Shown: in pieces, positions 31,361-34,363 of the stretch
Layout of the letters: every line of letters starts with the position of its first letter
How positions within the stretch are numbered: the stretch's first letter is position 1
DNA from: an uncultured Alphaproteobacteria bacterium
GTDB lineage: Bacteria; Pseudomonadota; Alphaproteobacteria; HIMB59; GCA-002718135
Assembly (NCBI GenBank): GCA_902620425.1
Contig: CACNHX010000006.1
Coordinates: 1 to 64,000, forward strand
DNA: 64,000 nucleotides
Direction: 5' to 3'
The notes under the pieces: model-generated
The model's database searches: none
Seen by the model: only the letters and a program-made list of their open reading frames with translations
What the model was told of the DNA's origin: nothing
Program-made: the position numbers and the translations under genes

Positions 31361-32227
31361 TCAAATAAAAAATTCTTTATTTTGTTGAGAAATCTCTAAC
31401 AATGATTTTTTTAATTTTTCTAGAGCTTTTGTTTCTATTTGTCTAACCCTCTCTTTGCTTATCTTTAACTTTTGACCTAATTCGTCTAGGGTAATGCTTT
31501 TTTCTCGAAATTTTCTCAATTTTATAATTATTTTTTCTCTATCATTAAGAGTATCTATAGCTTTATTAATGAAATCTTTTTTTATATTTTTGTCATTGAA
31601 GTCTTCAAAAGATTCTTCTGGATTTTGTCTGTCGTCAGCTAGTAAACTCATAAGATCGTTTTCTGTATCAGTGTCTACTTTTTGATTAAGATGTAAATCT
31701 CCACCAGTAAGTCGTGATTCCATATTTTGAACTTCTAGAGATTTTACATTGAGCATACTAGATACTTTGTTTATTTCGTCCTGACCCATAAATTCTCTTG
31801 AAACATCATTAATTTGTTGTTTAATTTTTTTAAGATTAAAAAAAAGAGCTTTTTGTGATGCTGTAGAACCTGTTCTGACAACTGACCAGTTTTTAAGAAT
31901 ATAATCTTGTATAGATGCTCTAATCCACCAAGATGCATAGGTAGAGAGTCTAAAGTCTTTTGATGTATCAAACTTTTCTAGAGCATGCATGATTCCAAGA
32001 ACCCCCTCATGAATTAGATCATCAATAGGTAAGCCATAACTTGAGTATTTTCTTGCGTATGAAACAGCTAGACGAAGATACGAATTAAGAATTTTTTGCA
32101 GTGATCTTGGAGTTTTATTATCTCTCCAATCATTAATAAGTGTGAATTCCTCATCCTTTTCAAGAATTGCCGCTTTTTTTGAAAGTTCAATTAAATTGTT
32201 GGAATGAAAGTAATTTTTAACAGCCAT
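31361..32227 (-). CDS. rpoH: RNA polymerase sigma-32 factor
   Basis: Heat-shock sigma factor (288 aa). Region 2 reads YGLPIDDLIHEGVLGIMHALEKFD and YASWWIRASIQDYILKNWSVVR. The RpoH box is QKALFFNLKKI, which distinguishes sigma-32 from RpoD. Region 4 ends SITLDELGQKLKISKERVRQIETKALEKLK. A pseudo-phosphatase gene lies 31 nt upstream, so the two may share a transcript. Confidence 0.96.
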   Translation of the reverse strand: MAVKNYFHSNNLIELSKKAAILEKDEEFTLINDWRDNKTPRSLQKILNSYLRLAVSYARKYSSYGLPIDDLIHEGVLGIMHALEKFDTSKDFRLSTYASWWIRASIQDYILKNWSVVRTGSTASQKALFFNLKKIKQQINDVSREFMGQDEINKVSSMLNVKSLEVQNMESRLTGGDLHLNQKVDTDTENDLMSLLADDRQNPEESFEDFNDKNIKKDFINKAIDTLNDREKIIIKLRKFREKSITLDELGQKLKISKERVRQIETKALEKLKKSLLEISQQNKEFFI

Positions 32228-32258: not shown

Positions 32259-33071
32259 TCAATTATTTTCAAAAATATCTAATATTTCACCATTTTCTCT
32301 GAAAATACCGCATAAAACGCTCTTATTGGTTAAAGGTTGTTTAAATAGAGTACAAACAACACTGTTTTTTGAATTTTCTAATTGATTTAAATGTTCAGAC
32401 TCATATCCTCTTACAATTCTTATAAATGTTTTGTATGGTTCCCTTATATTAGAAAAATTTTGGAACCCCCACCAAAAACAGTCATTCTGTGCAGAAAGGG
32501 GTCTAGTTATATCAACTCCTCTATTAACAAATAATATTTCTTTTGTATAAGAATATGCAGCATGCTTCAAATTCAAAAAATATTCAGTATGTCCAAGATT
32601 CATTTGCAATATTTTATTCAAACTTGATGTCCATTTTGAAATTTTGATAGTTCCAGAAGATGCAATATTTTTAACTTCATTTTCAGAGAAACCATATGAA
32701 TTTAATGTTCTATTTACTCCATGATCAAACATCCATTCAATAATTTCTGCTGGATTTGGTGCAAGTTGTAACTGTAGTAATTTACTAAACATTTCCTCTT
32801 GAGCACCTCTTAAAAAAACAATTGACTCGGGATTTAGTTGAAATTTTGACATTAAATTAAATCTCAAATCAATTACACTATCTAAAGTTTCTTTAGAGTG
32901 ATTGCCCAAACCTATAACATTACCAAGAAAAATTAATTTATCATTAATACCAAAATTTTTAAGTATAAATTTTTTAATTGAAGTAAAAGATTTTAAATTT
33001 GAATGTATTGATCCAATAGCCCAAATTTTGTTAGTATTATTTAATTCAACAAAATTACTTATGTTATTCAA
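32259..33071 (-). CDS. Metallophosphoesterase-fold protein lacking metal ligands
   Basis: A 270-aa protein whose layout follows PPP/metallophosphoesterases, with the signature residues replaced. Motif I GDxHG is GSIHS (20-24), GDxxDRG is GNVIGLG (50-56), RGNHE is RGAQE (88-92), the FVHAGV strand is FVNRGVD (181-187), and the late GHT-like position is GYE (222-224). I aligned these by eye from family knowledge. A catalytically dead, regulatory or structural role is likely. It lies between carD (4-nt gap) and rpoH. Confidence 0.72.
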   Translation of the reverse strand: MNNISNFVELNNTNKIWAIGSIHSNLKSFTSIKKFILKNFGINDKLIFLGNVIGLGNHSKETLDSVIDLRFNLMSKFQLNPESIVFLRGAQEEMFSKLLQLQLAPNPAEIIEWMFDHGVNRTLNSYGFSENEVKNIASSGTIKISKWTSSLNKILQMNLGHTEYFLNLKHAAYSYTKEILFVNRGVDITRPLSAQNDCFWWGFQNFSNIREPYKTFIRIVRGYESEHLNQLENSKNSVVCTLFKQPLTNKSVLCGIFRENGEILDIFENN

Positions 33072-33075
33072 AATA

Positions 33076-33579
33076 TTATTTTTTTATTAAAATTTGTTCA
33101 ATTTTTTCTGTTGATTGAAAATAATCTGTTTTTTCTACTGCTGCAACTTCCCTCGCTAATCTCTCTATTGCAACTTGAAACATTTGTCTTTCACTGTATG
33201 ATTGTTCTGCCTGACTACTTTTTCTAAATAAATCTCTTACAACTTCGGCTATTTTTACTGGATCACCTGAAAAAATCTTTGTCTCATATTCTTGAGCTCT
33301 TCTACTCCACATTATTCTTCTTATTTTTGGTTTTAATTTTAATGTTGAGTAAACTTCATCAATAATTTTTTTTGAAGAAATTTTTCTTAATCCAACCTCA
33401 TCTTTTTTATCTAGGGGCACTCTTATAACTAATTTGGATTGTTCCATTTTAACAACATAAAATCTTGTTTTTATACTAGAGATTTCCATATTTTCTATTT
33501 GCGTTATCTCACCTACTCCATGTTTCGGATAAACTACTATTTCTCCTATTTTAAATTCTGAGTTTTTTTTACTATTCAT
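33076..33579 (-). CDS. carD: CarD/CdnL-family transcription regulator
   Basis: A 167-aa RNA-polymerase-binding protein that stabilises open complexes, notably at rRNA promoters. The N-terminal Tudor-like domain reads FKIGEIVVYPKHGVGEITQIE. The helical C-terminal domain has IMWSRRAQEYETKIFSGDP and SYSERQMFQVAIERLAREVAAVE. It follows fdxA directly, the common alphaproteobacterial arrangement. Confidence 0.95.
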   Translation of the reverse strand: MNSKKNSEFKIGEIVVYPKHGVGEITQIENMEISSIKTRFYVVKMEQSKLVIRVPLDKKDEVGLRKISSKKIIDEVYSTLKLKPKIRRIMWSRRAQEYETKIFSGDPVKIAEVVRDLFRKSSQAEQSYSERQMFQVAIERLAREVAAVEKTDYFQSTEKIEQILIKK

Positions 33580-33912
33580 TTATCTTCCTGGTTTTGCACT
33601 GAAGTGTTTATTGTATTTATTTTTAACATTTTGCCATTCTTCAGCATCTGAAGGTGGATTTTTTTTCTCATTTATATTAGGCCAAATTTCTGAATATTTT
33701 CTGTTTATTTCAGCCCATTTTTCTATACCATCCTCAGTATCAGACAATATGGCTTCAACAGGACATTCAGGTTCACAAACACCACAATCAATACATTCAT
33801 CTGGGTGAATAACAAGCATATTTTCACCTTCATAAAAACAGTCAACTGGGCACACCTCAACGCAATCCATATGTTTACATTTAATACATTTTTCATCTAC
33901 AACATAAGTCAT
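33580..33912 (-). CDS. fdxA: Ferredoxin FdxA, 7Fe type
   Basis: A 110-aa ferredoxin with one 3Fe-4S and one 4Fe-4S cluster. [18 protein letters not shown] and [17 protein letters not shown] give the two cysteine sets, and the [15 protein letters not shown] bridge is typical of the FdII/FdxA group. It abuts carD and follows the TerB-like gene by one base. Confidence 0.97.
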
Positions 33913-33913
33913 A

Positions 33914-34363
33914 TTAATTCACTTTTCTATCTAGAGCTCTTTTTCTAGCATTTCCAGAGTCTACGTCAGTAATATAAAGTAATCCAGAAAGTCTTCTTAT
34001 AAGATTTGATTCAAAGTCATGAACCTCTCCATCAGATAATACAATGTCCCATAAAGCTTCAATTAGAAGAATTTTTTTATGTTCGTCAAATTTTTTATTA
34101 ATATAAGAAGTGTAATAGTGAAGGGATTTGGAGTTGTTTTTGTTTTTAACTGCACTTTCTATAACTAACTCAACATCTTTAGAATCTTCATTAAATACAT
34201 TAATTAAACTTAATTTAATTTTATTTAATTCACTTTCATCAACATTTCCATCAGTGTATGCGGCTTCTATCATTAATCCACATAATAATTCTAAATTTTT
34301 ATTGTCTTCAATATCGTCAGAAGAATTTTGGTCTTTTAAAATATTTTTTAAAAAATTTATCAA
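33914..34363 (-). CDS. TerB-like domain protein
   Basis: A 149-aa helical protein. [29 protein letters not shown] and the similar [31 protein letters not shown] are the two acidic D-G-x-V-x-x-x-E motifs of TerB, a fold that can bind metal. Function unknown; TerB-only proteins occur outside tellurite-resistance loci. In many relatives the slot between helicase and fdxA holds a small S4-domain protein instead. Confidence 0.8.

Follow-up and report, generated by a model that had tools for sequence, protein, structure and literature searches.

Pseudoenzymes are familiar from eukaryotic signalling, and an inactive calcineurin-like domain serves as a scaffold within a polymerase in POLE2, subunit B of DNA polymerase epsilon (PMC8634136). 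The bacterial phosphatases of the PPP type, which include ApaH and PrpE (Metallophos, PF00149; PRK00166, PRK09968, PRK11439), are defined in their active forms by six metal ligands (D, H, D, N, H and H), the catalytic His of the GNHE motif and the Asp of the DRG motif. We know of no dedicated regulatory partner of CarD in Alphaproteobacteria. CarD itself is essential or important in this class (PMC8407463, PMC5324124), and the wedge Trp of other CarD proteins is used at the open complex (PMC8407463).

An open reading frame between carD and rpoH

The window analysed here is a stretch of 64,000 nt from an uncultured alphaproteobacterium (contig CACNHX010000006.1). Its closest database records were uncultured marine alphaproteobacteria (AG-337-I02, MarineAlpha5 and 'SAR11' single cells), and the organism is taken to belong to a HIMB59-like group. 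An open reading frame on the reverse strand, designated X, encodes a protein of 270 aa, with a TTG start codon at 33071 and a stop codon that ends at 32259. The features of the locus are as follows.

31361..32227, reverse strand: rpoH-type sigma factor (Pfam Sigma70_r2/r4)
32259..33071, reverse strand: X, pseudo-PPP phosphatase (open reading frame, family alignments, PPP homology, AF2 model and Foldseek)
33076..33579, reverse strand: carD, CarD/CdnL-type RNA-polymerase-binding regulator of 167 aa (Pfam PF02559 and PF21095, above cut-off)
33580..33912, reverse strand: fdxA-type 4Fe-4S ferredoxin (DUF3470; Pfam)
33914..34363, reverse strand: TerB-like protein (Pfam TerB)

The stop codon of carD ends at 33076, 4 nt before X, and rpoH starts at 32227, 31 nt after X. 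These coordinates confirmed the two gaps given in the original prediction, which had described X as a pseudo-metallophosphoesterase between the two genes.

Distribution of X

Of 41 near genomes, most of which were incomplete, 18 had X, each as a single copy with an open frame. Relatives with 60-83% identity came from five genera, the four sister genera being at about 60%. A class-wide search revealed relatives in 96 further genomes among 289 alphaproteobacterial genomes (E 1e-37 to 1e-73). With the window's own family counted, X occurred in 56 of the alphaproteobacterial families sampled. About two thirds of the sampled genomes had no X, and nearly all of these, where checked, retained carD. 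This indicated that CarD works without X.

A tblastn search of plasmids with X gave only distant matches, of about 31% identity or less among the matches listed. None was a named, annotated member of the pseudo-family; the annotated matches were metallophosphoesterases or protein phosphatases.

TTG was the first in-frame start codon of X in 73 of the 78 family loci, and in 51 loci it was 4 nt past the carD stop codon. The conserved TTG, 4 nt behind carD, suggests that translation of X is weak and coupled.

Homology and predicted fold

When Pfam, NCBIfam and PDB were searched with the window X as a single sequence, or with its own family alone, nothing scored above any curated cut-off. The nearest models, all below cut-off, were PRK00166 (symmetrical Ap4A hydrolase; nearest for 14 of 16 members) and those of bacterial PPPs. 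Against PRK00166, X scored 13.7 bits and the relatives tabulated reached at most 24.4 bits. The cut-off is 176 bits, and X was thus not assigned to ApaH. These nearest models were also the best match for generic bacterial PPPs, so that Ap4A was not singled out for X.

A wider class alignment, of 111 sequences, was needed to reveal the homology. The profile of these sequences aligned end to end with canonical PPPs that possess all six ligands (E ~1e-21). A phylum-wide search with the X profile was bimodal. Members of the X family, all from Alphaproteobacteria, matched at E <=1e-98, far above the canonical PPPs at ~1e-18 or weaker (1e-10 to 1e-18; the sequences of some of these matches were read).

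The AF2 model of X from the alignment of 111 had a pLDDT of 93.5 and a pTM of 0.92. An earlier AlphaFold model from 16 close relatives (pLDDT 59) was excluded from the fold search. The top 50 Foldseek matches in the PDB were essentially PPP phosphatases or complexes containing one (prob 1.00), and the best of them, with E 9.6e-9 and TM 0.56, was 2qjc, a putative diadenosine tetraphosphatase. The moderate TM-scores (about 0.56) indicated that the fold of X has diverged. Judged from the profiles and the model, X is homologous to bacterial PPP phosphatases with a predicted PPP-type fold, in agreement with the homology originally proposed.

Replacement of the active site

The five motif regions of the X protein are at residues 20-24 (GSIHS), 50-56 (GNVIGLG), 88-93 (RGAQEE), 181-185 (FVNRG) and 219-224 (IVRGYE). 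Five canonical bacterial PPPs, each with all six metal ligands, were used as the reference for alignment. GSIHS, GNVIGLG, RGAQE, FVNRG and RGYE of X fell opposite GDIHG, GDxxDRG, GNHE, xxHAG and HGHT, respectively, as an alignment by eye had placed them before.

X retained one of the six metal ligands, the His of motif 1 (His23). The catalytic His was missing, with Gln91 at the GNHE His site, and Gly54 occupied the site of the DRG Asp. The surviving second-shell residues included R88, G89 and E92. The catalytic features that define active PPPs are thus missing from X, and it is not filed as a phosphatase; by its sequence it is a pseudo-member of the PPPs by descent.

The same pattern was seen in the 96 class relatives. 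The motif-1 Asp, the bridging Asp and the DRG Asp were each present in 0/96, the bridging site being Asn in 91 and the DRG site Gly in all 96. The GNHE Asn was present in 2/96, the catalytic His in 2/96 (Gln in 87) and the GHT His in 3/96. His23 was present in 80/96 and His183 in 50/96. Each relative had between zero and three of the six ligands (none in 11/96), and the phosphate-binding Arg of DRG was present in only 28/96. The original claim that all ligands were lost therefore stood for the loss of the active site but not for the word 'all', since X still has His23, and a further His is present in half of the relatives.

The replacements N51, G54, Q91 and R221 were each at least 90% conserved in the family alignment. 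Because the replacements are themselves conserved, the pocket appears to have been remodelled, not eroded. Invariant among the aligned members from the five genera were G20, S21, H23 and S24; G50, N51 and G54; R88 to E93; N183, R184 and G185; and R221, G222 and Y223. Residue 183 was Asn in all aligned members of the window's genus.

An atypical TTG start and the lack of a Pfam match might be counted as signs of a decaying pseudogene or a sequencing artefact. On the other hand, X was open and full length in every relative that spanned the locus, and dN/dS between close pairs was 0.07-0.16, a mark of purifying selection. The substitutions fixed over five genera (that of the window and its four sister genera), the low dN/dS and the kept TTG together exclude decay or error, and we give this explanation practically no weight. 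The relatives in five genera, the class-wide matches and the dN/dS values also exclude chance. The relatives revealed neither a canonical site nor a sequencing error, and selection on the inactive form, as envisaged before, was borne out.

Gene neighbourhood

X in the window lies directly 3' of carD on the same strand, an arrangement shared by 78 of the 96 class genomes (1.5-kb flanks). In 18/96, X was not found adjoining carD within the flanks examined. The neighbourhood with carD is therefore kept across the class and, as judged from gene order, is ancient. A TerB-like gene was upstream in 11 class X loci, within short flanks.

A gene for rpoH was directly downstream of X on the same strand in 35/96 (1.5-kb flanks) and in the window's genus. 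On the same strand, the upstream ferredoxin gene was present at 54/96 X loci and at 25 of 30 X-less carD loci, and rpoH followed carD in 10 of these 30. The ferredoxin-carD linkage and some of the carD-rpoH linkage thus persist without X, which makes X a removable piece.

In the four sister genera, X followed carD and the locus lacked rpoH. The closest RpoH homologue was elsewhere in the genome in three of them, and none was found in the fourth (G042, G043, G045, G049). Within the window's family, X thus keeps its place behind carD even where rpoH has left the locus, which makes CarD a likelier partner than RpoH. The original prediction had given the two genes equal weight, and this balance did not hold.

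The window genome has two RpoH-like sigma factors, the second copy being at C1:231070. X-bearing genomes usually had two or three RpoH paralogues. In most of the genomes checked, the X-linked paralogue was the one nearest to the window RpoH. This orthology was taken from whole-genome best matches, the window RpoH being on a long branch in the RpoH tree. As the rpoH of the window is a second RpoH paralogue, the link to heat-shock control drawn earlier is not implied.

A separate observation concerned the loci without rpoH. In 14 of 45 of these, a peptidase on the opposite strand, assigned to the M48 type from its sequence by eye, faced X (L147, L150, L161, L163, L167 and others).

Covariation with CarD residue 107

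Residue 107 of CarD was Pro in all X-bearing class genomes (93/93) and throughout the window's family (82/82), and in 36/80 X-less genomes. The 93 consisted of 78/78 with X adjacent to carD and 15/15 with no X found next to carD in the flanks examined; in at least two of these 15, X was within about 2 kb of carD. The X-less CarD proteins without Pro107 had Leu, Ile or other residues; Ile was the residue in the sister family that belongs to the same order and lacks X.

In a post hoc scan of the 167 CarD columns, residue 107 led all others for association with X by ten orders of magnitude (L289-L386). On the CarD tree, 11 changes of Pro107 were counted, none of them in an X-bearing row. The supported branches gave only three independent pairs (sign test p = 0.25). 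The covariation is thus a suggestive lead from sequence comparison, not significant after phylogenetic control. The window CarD has a wedge-type Trp at residue 91, putatively equivalent to the wedge Trp of other CarD proteins, and Pro107 is 16 residues later.

Two further observations were made on CarD. One row of the tree, P_L162, was X-bearing with Pro107 and was nested in a supported clade of X-less, Pro-less CarD proteins; carD and X may here have been transferred or regained together. In the X-less sister family, CarD had a long Lys/Ala-rich N-terminal extension, with open frames of about 235-243 aa versus 167 aa (L053, 4649-5371, reverse strand; L054, 4807-5535; L055, 1590-2294).

Proposed role and alternatives

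We lean towards the reading that X is a class-wide alphaproteobacterial pseudophosphatase that acts as a non-catalytic accessory of CarD-dependent transcription initiation. For the partner, the ligand and the direction of regulation, we infer the following. The two-metal centre and the catalytic His of a bacterial PPP fold like that of ApaH or PrpE would have disappeared long ago, and the protein would have been kept in a non-catalytic form, made in coupling to CarD. As a scaffold, X might contact CarD itself, perhaps close to its DNA-facing C-terminal domain, or the RNA polymerase to which CarD is bound. In the remodelled pocket (N51, G54, R88, Q91, E92, R221 and, in most members, H23), a phosphorylated ligand might be bound but not hydrolysed, and such a ligand would tune CarD. 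A more specific version is rather doubtful: X would bind the C-terminal domain of CarD near Pro107 and, as a third component of initiation, make the stability of the open complex respond to a signal from a phosphorylated small molecule or an RNA cap.

The partner could instead be the neighbouring RpoH2-type sigma factor, with X as its pseudoenzyme chaperone, anti-sigma factor or adaptor. The downstream rpoH genes, and the resemblance of the window RpoH to the X-linked paralogue, are in accord with this. A strict partnership was nevertheless downgraded, because the sister genera keep carD and X without a local rpoH, and because the 10/30 X-less loci indicate a linkage that is older than X or independent of it. 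We regard a role for the sigma factor as unlikely.

A role purely as a ligand sensor, in which a dead relative of ApaH and PrpE binds an Ap4A-like alarmone or a capped RNA 5' end on behalf of some other partner, appears equally unlikely. The nearest sub-cut-off models, the diadenosine tetraphosphatase as best structural match and the conserved Arg, Asn and Gln of the old pocket all point in this direction. Those models fit generic bacterial PPPs best too, so that they show no preference for Ap4A, and the scarcity of the phosphate-binding DRG Arg speaks against the sensor in general. The conservation of the pocket, of His23 and, in half of the family, of His183 could also be read as that of a surviving enzyme, a one-metal or metal-free hydrolase of new mechanism. 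This is more improbable still, as no member has an Asp ligand, the catalytic His is mostly Gln, residue 183 is Asn throughout the aligned members of the window's genus and some relatives have no ligand at all. In favour of the accessory role with CarD are the PPP homology and predicted fold, the lost ligands with their conserved replacements, the low dN/dS, the kept place behind carD and the Pro107 pattern, and POLE2 offers a precedent. Against it stand the many genomes with carD but no X, the 18/96 in which X was not found next to carD, the post hoc origin of the Pro107 association and the divergence of the fold.

Comparison with known systems

In X, the five motif regions have the same order and spacing as in the bacterial PPPs of the ApaH and PrpE type, with which X also shares a full-length profile alignment and a PPP-type fold. 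It differs from them in the replacement of the Asp ligands, the DRG Asp and, mostly, the GNHE Asn and His and the GHT His. It has in addition a conserved FWW segment and central helices, and it falls below the Pfam and NCBIfam cut-offs. CarD/CdnL (PMC5324124, PMC8407463) is encoded directly upstream in most X-bearing genomes and is a protein unrelated to X.

Our searches of Pfam, NCBIfam, PDB and the literature gave no family or paper describing X or its place beside carD. Across these collections, a widespread bacterial pseudophosphatase fixed within a core-transcription gene cluster thus appears to be undescribed, and X together with the covariation at CarD Pro107 provides a concrete, testable candidate for a CarD partner.

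VPS29 of retromer uses a metallophosphoesterase fold as a protein-interaction scaffold in eukaryotic membrane traffic, and is for X an analogy only. POLE2 differs from X in being eukaryotic, fused to an OB domain and engaged in DNA replication; the two work alike at most, and we claim no shared family. Like X, POLE2 has a dead metallophosphoesterase domain, and this domain has a scaffolding role within the machinery of a nucleic-acid polymerase, similar to the role proposed here for X (PMC8634136).
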